DNA of 36,328 nucleotides. Origin: Methanosarcinales archaeon. Lineage in GTDB: Archaea > Halobacteriota > Syntropharchaeia > Alkanophagales > Methanospirareceae. Positions 3,039 to 29,709 of the stretch are shown here, piece after piece. The notes beneath the pieces are model-generated. The model saw nothing but the letters and a program-made list of their open reading frames with translations, was not told where the DNA came from and ran no database searches. The position numbers and the translations under genes were made by a program. The stretch is taken from assembly GCA_030611045.1 (NCBI GenBank), contig JAUWQN010000009.1:1-36328 (forward strand), read 5' to 3'. Within the stretch, counting starts at the first letter, position 1, and each line of letters opens with the position of its first letter.

Positions 3039-3123
3039 TTCTGATTTTTTGCAACTATCTTGGGTTCGAATGTATTTTTGGTATATGCCCAATAAGGAGT
3101 GCGAAATCCTAAATCATAAGCAT

Positions 3124-3155
3124 CGTGGGCTCTGCCCACGTCCCCGCAAACCCTG
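3124..3155. repeat. Hairpin plus dispersed repeat module between ORFs
   Basis: CGTGGGC-TCT-GCCCACG (3124-3140) is a perfect 7-bp stem with a 3-base loop. The stretch 3134-3155 matches 24401-24422 at 19 of 22 positions (core CCCCG.AAACCCTG). The rest of the 3039-3330 gap is AT-rich, with short repeats of TTTAGTGTTTAG around 3240-3265. No gene is visible in it. Confidence 0.45.
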
Positions 3156-3330
3156 AAAGTGTTTAATCCTAAACAATATCAAAAATCCCAAAATAAAGGT
3201 TCGTTTTGAATTTTAAGTTTAGATATTGGAATTTGTTTCGGATTTAGTATTTAGTGTTTAGTGTTTGAAATTTATACCACAAGATATTGAGCAATTACTA
3301 TTTTTATATCAATAAGGATTATTTAAAATT

Positions 3331-8479: not shown

Positions 8480-8515
8480 GTGTTTAGTTCAATATTATAA
8501 TGAAGTGAAGAAGAA

Positions 8516-8929
8516 ATGGTGACAGAAATGTTAGAGGTTGGGGATGTGATGACACCAAAGGTTATTACTGAGGATGAGGAGACACTGGTCACTAAACTAT
8601 CAAAGGATATGGAATTAGCGGGGATAGGGAGCGTCGTGATAACAAAGGTGGGCAAACCGGTAGGAATTGTTACTGACCGAGATATAGCACTAAAAATTTT
8701 CGTATCGAAGAGAAATCCGAGTGAAGTAAAAGCAAAAGAGATTATGTCGTCTCCTTTGCTCACCATCGAGCCAGACGTATCCCTGGAGAAAGCATGCGAG
8801 CTTATGGCTGATAGGGGCATAAGAAGACTGCCGGTGATTGAAGATGATAAGCTCGTAGGCATTATAAGCCTCAGAAACGTCCTGACGCGAAGTCCAGCGT
8901 GTGTACATAAATTCTATCCCGCGGAATGA
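8516..8929 (+). CDS. CBS-pair protein, 137 aa
   Basis: Two CBS motifs make up the whole protein: residues about 8-65 (DVMTPKVITEDEETLV...GIVTDRDIALK) and about 74-131 (EIMSSPLLTIEP...GIISLRNVL). Free-standing CBS pairs bind adenine nucleotides or S-adenosyl compounds and regulate partner proteins. Two close paralogues lie at 9052-9444 and 20204-21037. All three end the second motif in LTR.P..V..FY. Start options are ATG 8516 or ATG 8528. Ligand and partner are unknown. Confidence 0.85.
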   Translation: MVTEMLEVGDVMTPKVITEDEETLVTKLSKDMELAGIGSVVITKVGKPVGIVTDRDIALKIFVSKRNPSEVKAKEIMSSPLLTIEPDVSLEKACELMADRGIRRLPVIEDDKLVGIISLRNVLTRSPACVHKFYPAE

Positions 8930-9051
8930 TAACAACTGCAGAAACTGAGACTGCGCATGCAAGATAGACGTGGGTATGGAGATACGTTAGAAGCCCCTCC
9001 TTTTTATTTTTAGTTAAGATATAGTGAATAAACAAAGGTGAAGAAGCAAAA

Positions 9052-9444
9052 ATGAACGTTAAGGATATAATGAGTCGTCCGATCATCGTAGAAGATGAAG
9101 AAACATTGGTGACTAAAATCGCGGAAGATATGGAAGAGTTGGGGATAGGGAGTGTGGTGGTAACAAAAGGAGGTGCGCCCGCAGGAATAATTACTGAACG
9201 AGACATAGCACTAAAGGTTTTACTGAAGAATAAAAGAGCAAGTGAAGTAAAAGCAAGAGAGATCATGACATCTCCTCTGACCACCATCGAGCCCGAAGCA
9301 TCTGTGGAGGAAGCGTGCAAGCTCGCGGCACGGAAGCATATAAAAAGGCTGCCCGTGGTTGAAAAAGGCGTGCTCGTAGGGATCGTAAGTATTCGCGATC
9401 TATTAACAAGGAAACCGGAGTTCGTGCGGGAGTTTTACTTCTAA
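9052..9444 (+). CDS. CBS-pair protein, 130 aa
   Basis: The protein is a tandem CBS pair: first motif DIMSRPIIVEDEETLV...GIITERDIALK (about 4-62), second EIMTSPLTTIEPEASV...GIVSIRDLL (about 70-122). It is closer to the CBS half of the protein at 20204-21037 than to its neighbour at 8516-8929: both share IMSRPI, LLKNKRA or ILKNKRA, and EAS(V). A possible ribosome-binding site (AAAGGTGAAG) precedes the ATG. It is separated by 120 bases from the previous CBS gene, so the two are probably separate transcripts. Confidence 0.87.
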   Translation: MNVKDIMSRPIIVEDEETLVTKIAEDMEELGIGSVVVTKGGAPAGIITERDIALKVLLKNKRASEVKAREIMTSPLTTIEPEASVEEACKLAARKHIKRLPVVEKGVLVGIVSIRDLLTRKPEFVREFYF

Positions 9445-20203: not shown

Positions 20204-21037
20204 ATGCGTACCAAAGAAGTAGAAGTAGATATGAAAGTTCGTGAGATAATGAGCCGTCCAATCGTCGCCGAAGATGAAGACGCTCTTGTCATAGAAATAG
20301 TGAAGAAGATGGCAGAGCTGAGAATTGGCAGTGTCGTTATAACATCGAAAGGTAAACCTGCGGGAATTATTACCGAGAGGGACCTCGCGTTAAAAGCTAT
20401 ATTGAAGAATAAACGTGCAAACGAGGTAAAAGCAAAAGAGATAATGTCTTCCCCTCTGGTAACTATCGACCCAGAAGCCTCTGTAAATGAAGCAAGCGAG
20501 TTCGCAGTGAAAGAGCATTTAAAAAGGCTACCTGTGGTTGAAAACGGCGTGCTCGTAGGCATTATAAGCATTAGAAACATATTGACACGGAAGCCAGAGT
20601 ATGTAAAAAGATTCTATCCAAGGATGCGTCTTTTAGCAAGTGGCTGGACCCTTGATAGACTTGAGCGGACTTTAAGCGACTGCGAAGTATATTTAGTGGG
20701 AAAAAATGTTGATAGTTTTAAGAAAGCTTTGAAAGACGTATATGATGAATTGGAGGAACTCGTAAATCATTATGTGGATGACAAGGAGCTCAAAGATATT
20801 TTTGAGAGCATGGACCAGTTCTATCATGAAGTTACGGGTAAAGGAGAAGGTGAGAACGAGATTTCGTTGGAGGAGCAACGGATGAAGTTAAATGCAATTT
20901 TGAGAAAATTCAGGCATACAACGTACGCAAGGAAGCAGCAAACACTCTCCAGCTTCGCGGGGGTTTCACGGTTAGGTGATTATCGGCATCGCACAGGCAA
21001 AGAGCTTCGTCTGCCCTTTAAAAGAACTCGACCGTAG
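20204..21037 (+). CDS. CBS-pair protein with helical C-terminal extension, 277 aa
   Basis: Residues about 10-140 are a CBS pair nearly collinear with the protein at 9052-9444 (EIMSRPIVAEDEDALV, GIITERDLALKAILKNKRA, EIMSSPLVTIDPEASV). A C-terminal domain of about 130 residues follows, helical and acidic up to about 225 (LKDVYDELEELVNHYVDD), then basic with a Gly/Arg-rich end (SRLGDYRHRTGKELRLPFKR). The extension is absent from the two other CBS paralogues here and I do not recognise it. ATG 20204 follows GAGGGAT; an internal ATG at 20231 matches the N-terminus of the paralogues. Confidence 0.85.
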   Translation: MRTKEVEVDMKVREIMSRPIVAEDEDALVIEIVKKMAELRIGSVVITSKGKPAGIITERDLALKAILKNKRANEVKAKEIMSSPLVTIDPEASVNEASEFAVKEHLKRLPVVENGVLVGIISIRNILTRKPEYVKRFYPRMRLLASGWTLDRLERTLSDCEVYLVGKNVDSFKKALKDVYDELEELVNHYVDDKELKDIFESMDQFYHEVTGKGEGENEISLEEQRMKLNAILRKFRHTTYARKQQTLSSFAGVSRLGDYRHRTGKELRLPFKRTRP

Positions 21038-23030: not shown

Positions 23031-23200
23031 ATCCAACTTTCTTTCACAAAGAAAGTTGGATTAAACCTTTTTTAAAGGTTTGACTTACCAACCCTCCTAA
23101 CCCAAAAAAGCTAAAGACTGCTAATTTTTGGCACACACCTTTTTAAAAGGTGTGATTTGGATTGCCCCTTTTTCTAAAAGGTTTGTAAAAGAAAAAGTGT
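23031..23200. repeat. Cluster of four hairpins ending in AAAGAAAAAGTGT
   Basis: In order: ATCCAACTTTCTTT-CAC-AAAGAAAGTTGGAT (perfect 14-bp arms, 23031-23061); AAACCTTT-TTT-AAAGGTTT (perfect 8-bp arms, 23063-23081); CACACCTTTT-T-AAAAGGTGTG (perfect 10-bp arms, 23134-23154); and an imperfect CCCTTTTTCTAAAAGGTTTG (about 23166-23185), followed by AAAGAAAAAGTGT at 23188-23200. The cluster fills the gap between divergent khtT and the AEC gene. It belongs to the dispersed family seen at 5953, 24401, 26844, 27502 and 29575. Confidence 0.8.
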
Positions 23201-23240: not shown

Positions 23241-24110
23241 ATGCATCAATCACTCGTACAAACCGTAATCCCCATATTCTCAATCATTTTAGTCGGGTAT
23301 GCGATCGGCAAATACAAAAAAATAGATATTCAAGCCTTCGTTAATCTAATCGTCTATATCGCAGGCCCGTGCTTAATCTTCGCGTCTATCGCACGAAGTG
23401 ATATCAACCTAACAGATTTTACCACAATAGCCGGCGCAGCATTAGCAATCATCCTCATCATGGCCCTTGCCACTTATCTCATCTTTAAACTAACCAATTC
23501 AGACAGAAAAGGATTGTATTTACCAATGGTCTTTGGCAATACGAGTTATTTAGGCTATCCAGTTGCATTATTCGCTTTTGGCATGGACGGCTTGTCACGA
23601 GCGGTTGTTTATGATATGATGAATTCTTTAGTTATCTTCAGCCTCGGCATCTATATCGTGCATCACAAAAACGAGCTGCAAGAAGCATTCAAAGTTCCGT
23701 TACTCTACGCGGTGGTAATTGGCTTGGCAGTCAATCTCTTACAAATTCCCGTTCCCGATTTGGTATTCACACCAATTGAACTGATCGGGATGATCACCAT
23801 CCCCTTAGCATTGCTCGTGCTCGGCTATAAACTGACGGAGATAAAGATAAGCGCAGTGAAAATAGCAATTCTCGCCTCTGTATTCAGGATTGGTGGCGGA
23901 GTTTTGGTTGCCCTTGCGATAATTAATCTCCTGTCCATAGACGGATTAGTAAAAGACATCATAGTGCTTCAGGCAGCAATGCCATCTGCGGTGATGGCAA
24001 TGATATTAGCCGCTAAATACAACAGAGACGCTTCGTTAGTCGCCTCGGTTGTTCTCATTACCACTGTGCTTAGTATGATCTCTATACCACTCATCTTGTA
24101 TGTTCTATAA
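23241..24110 (+). CDS. AEC family (auxin efflux carrier-like) permease
   Basis: The 289-residue membrane protein has about ten hydrophobic segments in two halves separated by a short loop around 150-160. The pattern IFSIILVGYAIGKYKKID at the start, PMVFGNTSYLGYPVALFAFG in the fourth segment and QAAMPSAVMAMILAAKYNRD near the end is typical of AEC transporters, including bacterial malonate/malate carriers. Substrate is unknown. It lies alone, preceded by the hairpin cluster and followed by a gene-free repeat region. Confidence 0.87.
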   Translation: MHQSLVQTVIPIFSIILVGYAIGKYKKIDIQAFVNLIVYIAGPCLIFASIARSDINLTDFTTIAGAALAIILIMALATYLIFKLTNSDRKGLYLPMVFGNTSYLGYPVALFAFGMDGLSRAVVYDMMNSLVIFSLGIYIVHHKNELQEAFKVPLLYAVVIGLAVNLLQIPVPDLVFTPIELIGMITIPLALLVLGYKLTEIKISAVKIAILASVFRIGGGVLVALAIINLLSIDGLVKDIIVLQAAMPSAVMAMILAAKYNRDASLVASVVLITTVLSMISIPLILYVL

Positions 24111-24400
24111 CCTCCTTGGTTATTATGCTCACAAAAATTGTGGAAACCGCCTGGTATGCTTACCGTTACTTACTGCCTTTTCCCCGCTCAACTGGACTGC
24201 TAATATAGGGTAAACTCACAGTATTTATATTTGTCTAAAAACTAACTTGTTGAGACACTAGACTACCTTTATCTTCGCACCTCAAAAAACTTTTCTTCGC
24301 TCTTTTTCACGTCACGTTCAAACCTCAAAAGTTATGTTCTCAGTATCTGCTCAAACTTCTGTGCGATCATGACCTGAGTTCTGCCCGGTGTAAGGTTCCG

Positions 24401-24499
24401 CCCCACGACCCCGAAAACCCTGCTCAACTTTTCTTTTTTCCGCGAAGCCGCGAAGCATTTTTGGTCCAACTTTCCTAAAGTTTGAAAAAGAAAAAGTGT
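24401..24499. repeat. Composite repeat inside the gene-free stretch 24111-24539
   Basis: Three modules stand in order: 24401-24422 (19/22 identical to 3134-3155); 24464-24486, an inverted repeat TCCAACTTT-CCT-AAAGTTTGA with one mismatch; and AAAGAAAAAGTGT at 24487-24499. A double CGCGAAGC lies at about 24441-24456. The downstream flank of argD (minus strand) therefore begins with the T-rich side of the module. The rest of 24111-24400 has no gene, tRNA or clear hairpin that I can see. Confidence 0.65.
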
Positions 24500-24539: not shown

Positions 24540-25721
24540 TTATCGGATAACCTCACTCAAGACTGAGATCACTCTATCTACTTGCTCTTTACTTATAACC
24601 AGCGGCGGCACTAACCTTATCACGTTACCCGCAGTGCAATTTATCAAACATCCTCTTTCAAGCGTCTTCTCCACTATTTCACCACAGGGCTTCGTTAATT
24701 CTATTCCTATCATCAGCCCTATTCCCCTTATCTCTTTCACTATTGGCTTTGAATTGATCCCGGTATCGTGAGCACTTTTCATGAAATATTCACCAAGCTC
24801 TCGGGACCGTTCCACCAACTTTTCGTCCTCTATCACAGTTATAGACGCTAATGCAGCAGCACACGCCAGTGGATTACCGCCAAAAGTTGATGCATGTTCA
24901 CTGGCTTCAAATTCTATTCCCTCTTTTGCAAGCATTGCACCAATAGGGAAACCAGCACCAAGTGCCTTTGCCACGGTCATTATATCCGGCTCTACGCCTT
25001 CATGCTCCTTACCAAACCATCTCCCGGTACGACCAAACCCCGTCTGGATCTCATCCAAAATCAGCAGAACATTTTTTTCAGTGCATATCTCCCGTACCTC
25101 TTTCAAGTAGCCTGCTGATGGGACTATTACACCAGTTTCTCCCTGAACAGGCTCTAAGATAACTGCCGCAGTGTCATCATCTATCGCCTTTCTAATTGCT
25201 TCTGCATCGTTGTATCGCACGAATTTCACGCTCTTCAACAGTAAAGATTCAAATGCGCTCCGGAATTTCGGTTCAAACGTTACACTCAATGAGCCAAGTG
25301 TTCTGCCGTGAAAACTGCCTTCCGCAGCTATAAAATTATGCTTACCGGTCATTTTACATGCCAATTTCAATGCTGCTTCTATGCTTTCCGCGCCCGAATT
25401 ACAGAAAAACGTCTTAGCCATGCCAGTTATCTCAGAGAGCTTCTCCGCGAGTTTTACCTGCGGCTCGGTATAATACAAATTCGAGACGTGCATGAGCTTC
25501 TCAGCTTGCTTCTTTAGCGCAGCCACTACCACCGGATGGCAGTACCCAAGCACATTCACTGCAATGCCACCAACGCAATCAATATACTCGTTCCCAAAAA
25601 AGTCCGTTACTATCGCGCCTTTGCCCTCTTTTATTACTATTCGCTGTCGCTTGTACGTTTGCATTATGTACCGCTTCTCTTTCTCTATAACCGCTTCCTG
25701 AGACGAAAACATATTAATCAC
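24540..25721 (-). CDS. argD: Acetylornithine aminotransferase
   Basis: This class III PLP aminotransferase (393 residues) makes N-acetylornithine in arginine synthesis. Key segments are FFCNSGAESIEAALKLA, FHGRTLGSLSVT, VILEPVQGETGV, LILDEIQTGFGRTG with the cofactor Asp/Gln, the PLP lysine in VAKALGAGFPIG and the ArgD-like end INCTAGNVIRLVPPLVI. An N-terminal extension of about 15 residues precedes YIMQTYKRQ, so an internal start (MFSSQEAV or MQTYKRQ) is possible. The listed start overlaps the upstream PHP gene by four bases. A lysine-pathway LysJ role cannot be excluded. Confidence 0.92.
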   Translation of the reverse strand: MINMFSSQEAVIEKEKRYIMQTYKRQRIVIKEGKGAIVTDFFGNEYIDCVGGIAVNVLGYCHPVVVAALKKQAEKLMHVSNLYYTEPQVKLAEKLSEITGMAKTFFCNSGAESIEAALKLACKMTGKHNFIAAEGSFHGRTLGSLSVTFEPKFRSAFESLLLKSVKFVRYNDAEAIRKAIDDDTAAVILEPVQGETGVIVPSAGYLKEVREICTEKNVLLILDEIQTGFGRTGRWFGKEHEGVEPDIMTVAKALGAGFPIGAMLAKEGIEFEASEHASTFGGNPLACAAALASITVIEDEKLVERSRELGEYFMKSAHDTGINSKPIVKEIRGIGLMIGIELTKPCGEIVEKTLERGCLINCTAGNVIRLVPPLVISKEQVDRVISVLSEVIR

Positions 25722-26841: not shown

Positions 26842-28230
26842 TTAAAGAAAAAGTGTCTTCAACCCGAGCCATATATCCTGTATATTTATACCGATTACCT
26901 GCCCCACAACATAAAGCCCGATGAACGTGCCTGCAATGCTCCCTATATTTGCCAGTGCCGCGACAAGAATGACTTTAAATAGTCTGTTGCTCATCAACTC
27001 TCGTACCGAGTCCACATTCAGCATATTCTTTGCATCTTCCATTGACGGCTTTCGGAAATGAGCCTCTGCCAGGCCTGCAAACCAGCCCGCCGCTAAAAAT
27101 GGGTTCAAAGACGTAAGCCATGCCACGCAAAAAGCGGTAACTGCAGAAAGCGGATGCCCACGTGCGATCACCACACCAGCCGCAGACAAAACGCCGTTTA
27201 TTATGAACCACCACAAAAACGCTCGAAGAAGAACATGAAAAGATATGTCCGTGAAGATGAACGCTAAAAGGACGATCAGGAAAGCCGCACCGATCCCAAT
27301 CCCCAGCAATTTCCTTATTGATATATTAACCCGTTTTTTAGGAAGCGTGCATAACTCCTCCTTCGTGGGTAGCAGCTCTGGCTGACTGAGAAATTTCTTT
27401 ATCCCCGTCACATGTCCCGCACCAACTACCGCAACTATTTTTCCTTTTTCGCGGGGAGCCGTTTGATCCCAGGTCTCTAAAGTATGTTGCGTAGCATTTT
27501 GATCAAACTTTTCTAAAGTTTGATAGGCGGAAGCTTGCGTAACGCTTTTGAACGTTTGAGTTTGGATTTCGAGCAAACTTCTTGCAATATACGCATCTCG
27601 TTCATCTAACAGTGCTGTTGCTGCACCCGGTGAAAACTCCCTTAGTTCTTTCATCAACTGCGTAACTACATCGTCATCCGTCAGTCTATCAAGCTCTATC
27701 TCATTATTCATGCCCATAATGCCAGTCATGATCTTCTTATTCCCTTTCTCGTTTTCTCCCTCGCCACCCGCTTTAAACGTTCCACCGCGTCCTATAGTGA
27801 CAATCGAGAAGATGATAGAAAAAAGCATCTTGAGCTTCTCCCAAAACCGCATCTTCTTCCAGAATCGCTGCATCGTTATTTCTATAGGGCGGTCAATCAA
27901 CGCAATCTTACAACCCTGCTCCTCTGCCTTATTTATCGCCGCCAGCATATCTGCTCCGGGTTCAATACCCAACTCTGCGCCCAGTTTACGCTGCACGTAT
28001 GCAAGCAGCCAGTGAGTGAGTATCATAAAAGGATTGCCAGAGCTGAGCATTTCTTTGGGAGAAACTTCTCTCATTTCACCTTTCAATGCATTGTATCTCG
28101 CTTCACACAATTCAACAGCGACGACATCAGGCTTTTCTCGCTCTATTACCGCTTCTACTTCCTTCACGCTCTTCTCTAAAACGTGCCCGGTTCCTATCAA
28201 TAGTATATTACCCGCATCATGCTCGCTCAT
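26842..28230 (-). CDS. traB: TraB family membrane protein with in-frame repeat insert
   Basis: The TraB domain begins NILLIGTGHVLEKSVKEVE and has PDVVAVELCEARY, FMILTHWLLAYVQRKLG, ALIDRPIEIT and VVAVVGAGHVTGIKKFL. About four to five membrane segments follow (from about 300 on), including GHPLSAVTAFCVAWLTSLNP. Family function is unsettled. Between LLEIQT and KGKIVAVVG an unusual insert of three 12-residue repeats occurs (QTFKSVTQASAY, QTLEKFDQNATQ, HTLETWDQTAPR). The last codons (KTLFL) are encoded by the AAAGAAAAAGTGT repeat. I choose ATG 28230 because a TATA box (28284-28293) and GAGAGG fit it; the open frame extends 30 codons upstream to 28320. Confidence 0.85.
   Translation of the reverse strand: MSEHDAGNILLIGTGHVLEKSVKEVEAVIEREKPDVVAVELCEARYNALKGEMREVSPKEMLSSGNPFMILTHWLLAYVQRKLGAELGIEPGADMLAAINKAEEQGCKIALIDRPIEITMQRFWKKMRFWEKLKMLFSIIFSIVTIGRGGTFKAGGEGENEKGNKKIMTGIMGMNNEIELDRLTDDDVVTQLMKELREFSPGAATALLDERDAYIARSLLEIQTQTFKSVTQASAYQTLEKFDQNATQHTLETWDQTAPREKGKIVAVVGAGHVTGIKKFLSQPELLPTKEELCTLPKKRVNISIRKLLGIGIGAAFLIVLLAFIFTDISFHVLLRAFLWWFIINGVLSAAGVVIARGHPLSAVTAFCVAWLTSLNPFLAAGWFAGLAEAHFRKPSMEDAKNMLNVDSVRELMSNRLFKVILVAALANIGSIAGTFIGLYVVGQVIGINIQDIWLGLKTLFL
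26844..26856. repeat. AAAGAAAAAGTGT module overlapping the traB 3' end
   Basis: This is an exact copy of the 13-base module at 6028, 23188 and 24487. Here it is read through by traB: on the minus strand it supplies the codons for the last residues and adjoins the stop codon. The flank 26805-26843 has GGGTTTTCAAAACGG and ATCAAAG, further family-like pieces. 26722-26841 holds no gene. Confidence 0.6.
27451..27558 (-). repeat. Three tandem 36-bp repeats inside traB, with palindrome
   Basis: The units are 27523-27558, 27487-27522 and 27451-27486, each exactly 36 bases and in frame, encoding 12 residues each with shared pattern (Q/H)T(L/F)(E/K)xxxQxx. The middle unit holds a perfect inverted repeat, ATCAAACTTT-TCT-AAAGTTTGAT (27502-27524). 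The same palindrome stands at 29617-29639, and a one-mismatch version at 24464-24486, both followed or preceded by GNAGC(A/G)TTTT. So the coding insert derives from the dispersed intergenic family. Confidence 0.75.
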
Positions 28231-28283
28231 ATCTACTTTTATCCTCTCGTTGCCTGTCCTGCAATTACGTAATATTCCTGCAG

Positions 28284-28293
28284 ATTTATAAAT
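28284..28293 (-). promoter_or_regulatory. TATA box deciding the traB start
   Basis: ATTTATAAAT is centred about 59 bases before ATG 28230, predicting a start near 28263 and a leader of about 33 bases with GAGAGG before the ATG. The element lies inside the longer open frame, which argues against the start at 28320. Confidence 0.45.
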
Positions 28294-28372
28294 CCTAAAC
28301 CCTCTCTCCGTCTGAACCATATTCGATTTATTTATTGAGAACTGAGTGCCGGGAATTTAGACCTGCTTACCG

Positions 28373-29574: not shown

Positions 29575-29639
29575 AAAACTTTCTTTTAAAAGAAAGTTTT
29601 ATGTGGAGCGTTTTCGATCAAACTTTTGTAAAGTTTGAT
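29575..29639. repeat. Two palindromic modules abutting tRNA-Gly
   Basis: 29575-29600 is a perfect 26-base palindrome with half-site AAAACTTTCTTTT. 29617-29639 is ATCAAACTTT-TGT-AAAGTTTGAT with perfect 10-bp arms. The last base of the second palindrome is the tRNA discriminator base, so the element begins exactly where the mature tRNA ends. A CACTTTTTCTT variant of the tail module lies at about 29560-29570. Confidence 0.75.
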
Positions 29640-29709
29640 GCGGCAACCGGGGCTCGAACCCGGGTTATAGGCTTGGGAAGCCCAGGTCCTACCGCTAGAC
29701 TATTGCCGC
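29639..29709 (-). tRNA. tRNA-Gly (anticodon CCC)
   Basis: Minus-strand cloverleaf: acceptor GCGGCAA with TTGCCGC, D arm GTCTAGCGGTAGGAC, anticodon stem TGGGC/GCCTA (one G-U), loop TTCCCAA giving anticodon CCC, four-base variable loop TAAC, and T arm CCGGG-TTCGAGC-CCCGG. The discriminator is A at 29639 and CCA is not encoded. Its 5' end overlaps the last codons and stop of rpo11 by 15 bases. No intron. Confidence 0.96.

Follow-up and report, generated by a model that had tools for sequence, protein, structure and literature searches.

An in-frame segment of a TraB-family protein in an ANME-1 archaeon is very probably a copy of a dispersed palindromic repeat

The window, which is the whole stretch of 36,328 nucleotides analysed here, comes from a 1.54 Mb genome of ANME-1 (Methanophagales) and contains a traB gene in which the loop between the conserved LLEI and VVGAGH blocks of the protein contains three in-frame 12-residue units. 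The same palindrome is seen in the middle unit and outside genes, and the question raised by this locus is how it came to be part of a coding sequence. In a preliminary description of this DNA, it was proposed that a mobile palindromic element was inserted into traB without breaking the frame, similarly to the Rickettsia palindromic elements (RPEs), and was then tandemly duplicated. The analysis described here indicates that the traB unit is very probably a copy of a dispersed ANME-1 palindromic repeat, which is non-autonomous, apparently selfish, and tolerated in frame.

The features on which this interpretation is based are listed in Table 1. The translations of the three units are as quoted in the preliminary description, and perfect 10+3+10 palindromes are present at 27502-27524 in traB (ATCAAACTTTTCTAAAGTTTGAT) and at 29617-29639 outside genes, with 0 expected in dinucleotide shuffles. 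The likeness it had pointed out near 24430-24486 was borne out by a true family member, in which both the tail and the palindrome are visible. The extent of the repeat had to be revised; the palindrome is real, but the full unit is the palindrome plus a ATCAAAATGCTTCGCAA tail, 36 or 39 nt in length.

Table 1. Coordinates of palindromic units and associated genes in the window and in other loci.
Feature	Position	Strand	Remarks
traB (TraB/PrgY/GumN family, 492 aa)	26842..28320	-	PF01963, E 3e-31; bears inserted units
Unit 1 of traB, diverged relative	27523..27558	-	Reads QTFKSVTQASAY; 18/36 to consensus, shuffle p 0.002
Unit 2 of traB, near-consensus 36-bp element (A36)	27487..27522	-	Reads QTLEKFDQNATQ; model match E 1.8e-10
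Unit 3 of traB, diverged relative	27451..27486	-	Reads HTLETWDQTAPR; 23/36 to consensus, shuffle p <5e-5
A36-type copy outside protein genes	29605..29639	-	Adjoins 3' end of tRNA-Gly(ccc) at 29639
tRNA-Gly(ccc)	29639..29709	-	Neighbour of the intergenic copy
Longer related palindrome AAAACTTTCTTTTAAAAGAAAGTTTT, CTTT class	29575..29600		Beside the A36 copy
Third A36-type copy	24450..24484	-	Between ORFs 23241-24110 and 24540-25721; E 2.2e-8
CTTT-class palindrome ATCCAACTTTCTTTCACAAAGAAAGTTGGAT	23031..23061		Between ORFs
Degenerate copy of the GC-rich family (C)	3107..3161	-	Between ORFs
Palindromes in introns of tRNA-Gly(tcc)/tRNA-Arg(cct)	L109:6127-6147, L128:1289-1309, L328:1206-1228, L097:1198-1218, L155:1218-1237		
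Ogt with 14-residue GC-rich insert	L341:1261-2208		Own genome, contig C8; insert directly before catalytic IPCHRV

The unit was defined from 137 palindrome sites with their flanks, taken from the window genome and six relatives. At these sites, the palindrome belongs to a longer unit that has an orientation and takes the form CAAACTTTAGGAAAGTTTGATCAAAATGCTTCGCAA (36 nt) or CAAACTTTTAAGAAAAGTTTGATCAAAAACGCTTCGCAA (39 nt); the family consensus is CAAACTTT(nnn)AAAGTTTG followed by ATCAAAA(A)nGCTTCGCAA. These units are designated as A type, with 36- and 39-bp forms (A36 and A39). As DNA, the A unit is a hairpin with an 8-9 bp stem and a 3-nt loop, followed by a tail of 17-18 nt, and the hairpin is more stable than shuffles (z -3.2 and -2.6). 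A related class with longer stems (CAAACTTTCTTT...AAAGAAAGTTTGATCAAAG) is mostly intergenic. The search for known RNA families returned tRNA only. The forward frame of the A unit is stop-free and reads QTLGKFDQNASQ or QTFKKSLIKNASQ; with all six frames considered, the 36-nt form has two that are open and the 39-nt form has three. Of the A units within long ORFs, 30 use the single QT frame and 5 use other frames. The frame preference is moderate when counted per gene family (14/18, p 0.015), and the comparison of coding and non-coding copies for lengths that are multiples of three is suggestive only (Fisher p 0.064).

Unit 2 of traB, whose palindrome spans 27504-27522, is identical to the dispersed consensus at 34/36 positions, versus 24/36 and 19/36 to its neighbours. 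Because of these identities, unit 2 looks younger than the neighbouring units and not their duplicate, as if it had arrived later among units already in decay; the tandem duplication once proposed is not supported as its source. The motif ETWDQTA of unit 3 is common to the TraB linkers of other members of the genus (L009, L012, L031, and L034). In the closest sequenced relative (G018), whose TraB is 92% identical, all of unit 2 is absent, together with one further codon of the otherwise preserved flanks: ...TTCCTATCATACTTTAGAGACC in G018 versus ...TTCCGCCTAT[36 nt]CATACTTTAGAGACC in the window. Between one and four A36 or A39 units are seen in TraB proteins of other genera, some of which have no unit at all, and the TraB of G021 includes three near-identical 39-bp units in tandem. 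The linker of a distant genus (L087) has no element and an unrelated sequence, LLELQAQAQKK (LLELQAQAQKKIVAVVGAGH). Since linkers without the element occur in distant genera, the site is a tolerant loop that was not made by the element. In the AlphaFold model of TraB, which has modest overall confidence (mean pLDDT 63.6), the insert loop (residues 257-290) is predicted to be disordered (pLDDT<50) and lies between a helix and a strand. The TraB loop is a place where units accumulate, decay, and get replaced.

Palindromic units are present in many other ORFs. A units were found in frame in PurL, PheA, NnrD, UbiA, EndA, a DUF92 protein, a glutamate-synthase-like protein, and CfbE (Mur ligase), and further in PheT, GlmS, an NAD epimerase, and others. 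Pfam matches support these hosts as PDT, tRNA endonuclease, Carb_kinase, UbiA, DUF92, Glu_synthase, Mur ligase, PheRS beta, Epimerase, and GlmS. Presence/absence comparison revealed that in-frame units of these unrelated conserved genes are missing in orthologues. The PheA loop, for instance, reads LLGKGSFTKIKK without a unit and LLAK[QTSGKFDQNASQ]SFARIRK with a 12-residue unit, and GlmS of G020 has an insertion in its glutaminase domain relative to solved homologues. The turnover of units is best displayed by PurL, in which one and the same loop has one A unit in G017, two in G018 (an extra 36-nt unit), a class-B palindrome in G000, and none in G035. In the window's own genome, CfbE contains a variant unit (L299), PurL a class-B palindrome (L203), and WecB an A36 unit within the C-terminal region, just before NWQNPFGDG (L287, contig C12).

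Some of these loci show additional features. The WecB frame is interrupted around 50-60 codons upstream of the A36 unit, between this unit (L287) and a GC-rich element (L352); the interruption may reflect a genuine frameshift or a mistake in the assembly. EndA, the tRNA splicing endonuclease, carries an A39 unit near its own C-terminus in G002 (L109:32-1258). Two contigs of G001 (C107 and C120; L114 and L148) both end in a perfect array of 39-bp coding units, which probably split one gene in the assembly.

A second, GC-rich palindromic family (C) is also present in frame in genes. Its element AAGCCCTTACAGGGCTTGCGGGGTCGTGGGGCAGAGCCCCAC is 42-45 nt long and has two 7-bp hairpins, so that the units of the two families measure 36, 39, and 42-45 nt. 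Copy numbers reach 127 in a single genome; the window's own genome has 21 copies, and the control count was 0. In Ogt of this genome, the element is in frame (KPLQGLRGRGAEPH) between NPYPVI and IPCHRVV, beside the catalytic cysteine, and solved homologues have a gap of exactly 14 residues where the insert lies. Further in-frame hosts in the same genome are WecB, an NAD epimerase, an AlaRS/AlaX-like protein, and two more ORFs. The Ogt ORF runs on into a C-terminal segment outside the methyltransferase match. A partial element of a GC-rich subfamily (reverse complement of CAGGGTTTTCGGGGTCGTGGGGC) is located at 24400-24425 of the window, and around 25 bp separate it from the A36 copy of 24450-24484. 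Elsewhere in the window, 8512-9332 and 20212-20619 include three related stretches of around 300 bp, 67-69% identical, which look like paralogous domains, possibly CBS.

Insertion into preexisting sequences is shown by nested copies. In TraB of G003, a 45-nt GC-rich copy interrupts an A39 palindrome, and its removal exactly restores CAAACTTTTGAAAAAAGTTTG, the palindrome that is intact in TraB of G002. In PurL of G002, an A-type unit lies within a class-B palindrome. Therefore, insertion happens, and slippage is not the only process. The nested insert of G003 shows no net target-site duplication, and the flanks at other sites are ambiguous.

RNA genes are also targets. Twenty of the 137 sites are inside tRNA genes or abut them (within 5 nt), while random placement in the same loci gave 1.2, with a maximum of 7 in 2000 runs. 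The palindromes inside tRNA genes correspond to the introns of tRNA-Gly(tcc) and tRNA-Arg(cct) recognized by ARAGORN. Assembly error is unlikely for these copies, since a genome assembled into 5 contigs (G005) has a tRNA-intron palindrome as well as coding copies. The palindrome next to tRNA-Gly(ccc) is in the same place in G001-G004.

The abundance of the palindrome is far above chance. It has 6 copies in the window's own genome, with 0 for the control, and the sequence model of the full unit gives 15-16 matches there at E<1e-3, including those in traB, at 24450-24484, and at 29605-29637. In the family, 46 of 51 genomes contain the palindrome, with up to 37 per genome, and the reversed-pattern control was 0 in every one. 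It is absent from both genomes sampled of the sister family and nearly absent from the rest of the class. In a survey of 394 genomes from the phylum, it was essentially restricted to the family, except for a few families with small genomes and one genus whose genomes are larger (f8 g68, presumed to be Methanosarcina). Four genomes of this genus (G160, G179, G192, and G295) have 30 to 62 palindromes each in a 23-nt form, CAAACTTTTTnnnAAAAAGTTTG, and no insertion into a conserved gene was seen in nine loci sampled. These 23-nt palindromes are possibly relatives of the ANME-1 element, or look-alikes.

It is very improbable that the TraB linker is an intragenic minisatellite that grew by local slippage, with the intergenic match being secondary or due to chance. 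The hypervariable length of the linker across the family and the clean tandem arrays in some relatives, such as the 39-bp units of G021, are what slippage would give. However, this explanation is largely refuted already by the dispersed copies: the traB unit is also present in many unrelated genes and at intergenic sites, its palindrome is in tRNA introns, and unit 2 is closer to the genome-wide consensus than to its neighbours. Another possibility is that the element is an archaeal intron cut from the mRNA by the tRNA splicing endonuclease and thus stays outside the protein. A spliced insert needs no frame, whereas the copies in conserved genes are in frame, stop-free, and 36, 39, 42, or 45 nt long, and the units in long ORFs favour one frame. 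These properties leave splicing very improbable, although palindromes of the family do occur in the introns of tRNA-Gly(tcc) and tRNA-Arg(cct), and pre-mRNA introns exist in archaea, according to the account of the Cbf5 case in PMC2738675.

In several genomes, a copy follows tRNA-Gly(ccc) at a conserved position, and copies are strongly enriched at tRNA ends. Both observations recall a functional hairpin, such as a tRNA 3'-end processing signal, a terminator, or a regulatory site, which would be selected, vertically inherited, and immobile. Such hairpins would not be expected upstream as well as downstream of tRNAs, nor in unrelated proteins, nested, and differing between close relatives, as the copies are. 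A function of this kind is quite improbable as the general explanation, but some copies could have it as a secondary role. Mobilization by a RAYT (Y1) transposase, as for REP/REPIN repeats, would be in line with the size, the hairpin form, and the paired arrangement (24-bp spaced 19+21-nt palindromes), which recall BIMEs, and Y1 transposases are present in 29 of the 51 family genomes. Nevertheless, no Y1 match was found in G000, G002, G005, G017, and G045, which bear 6 to 28 copies, and no palindrome was found in any Y1 locus examined. For a MITE-like relationship, too, the transposases compared were those of the Y1 family, and none could be tied to the element. The presence of the transposase does not track copy number, and RAYT/Y1 was rejected as the mobilizer; a REP-like origin of this type is unlikely.

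The dispersed palindromic repeat remains the preferred explanation for traB. The preliminary description was right in regarding the segment as a palindromic element inserted in frame and RPE-like in kind; that it is mobile is suggested by the insertion patterns. The repeat would spread to sites between genes, next to tRNA ends, and within tRNA introns and genes, the hairpin presumably being copied in trans by some activity. In the right orientation and frame, an insertion would add 12 or 13 polar residues and the protein would stay intact if the loop is tolerant, as the units have lengths of 36 or 39 nt and one frame free of stops. Selection would remove the remaining insertions, and the surviving genic copies would be explained by the frame-neutral length, the open polar frame, and the tolerant loops. 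The insert in protein genes is likely to be translated, not spliced. Some of the variation at shared loops could arise via deletion, slippage, or gene conversion between copies. As for viral carriage, the A39 and C units have no exact match in IMG/VR. A wider proposal is put forward tentatively: at least two unrelated coding-compatible families, the AT-rich A (36/39 nt) and the GC-rich C (42-45 nt), with stop-free frames, may continue to enter tRNA introns and the loops of core enzymes, with frame-neutral lengths selected and copying independent of RAYT, and may be a continuing source of novel protein segments.

The closest known systems are the RPEs (Ogata et al. 2000, 2002), whose units are around 105-150 bp according to the passages on them in PMC10969869 and PMC2229807. 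As described there, RPEs are interspersed palindromic repeats located between genes and in frame in unrelated conserved genes, as well as in RNA genes, with several families per genome. The ANME-1 repeats are of this Rickettsia-type coding palindromic kind in being multicopy above chance, in frame in conserved genes, and present in RNA genes. Their units, 36-45 bp in an uncultured archaeon, do not have the length of RPEs proper, and the likeness is one of kind; the RNA genes are tmRNA and M1 RNA for RPEs, and tRNA introns and tRNA ends for ANME-1. Palindromic repeats with coding potential were also reported from Methanocaldococcus jannaschii, as cited in PMC2229807, where the review speaks of archaeal palindromic repeats fused into protein genes. 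This archaeon is outside the ANME-1 group, and the similarity is at the level of the review's description. Going by the title of a 2005 paper cited in PMC2229807, coding palindromic repeats are likewise found in Wolbachia, a bacterial endosymbiont. REP, BIME, and REPIN repeats associated with RAYT share hairpins of 20-40 bp in single and paired arrangement (PMC3733652 for REP classes). Classical REPs are extragenic and have a tetranucleotide tag (PMC3733652), while many ANME-1 copies lie in coding sequence, and a link to RAYT was not found. In the library searched, no report was found that deals with palindromic repeats in ANME-1 or Methanophagales.

For annotation, segments similar to QTFKKSLIKN or KPLQGLRGRGAEPH in ANME-1 proteins should be regarded as insertions, and repeat arrays break assemblies, as at the two G001 contigs. 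Most records of coding palindromic repeats have so far come from Rickettsia and Wolbachia, and an archaeon is the subject of one report. Here they recur in dozens of genomes across a family of globally important methane-oxidizing archaea, with near-exact before/after pairs, nested copies, and several host genes in a genome. With repeats in so many related genomes, the questions of the RPE era, that is, how such elements move, which proteins tolerate them, and whether they bring any benefit, are now testable by comparison.
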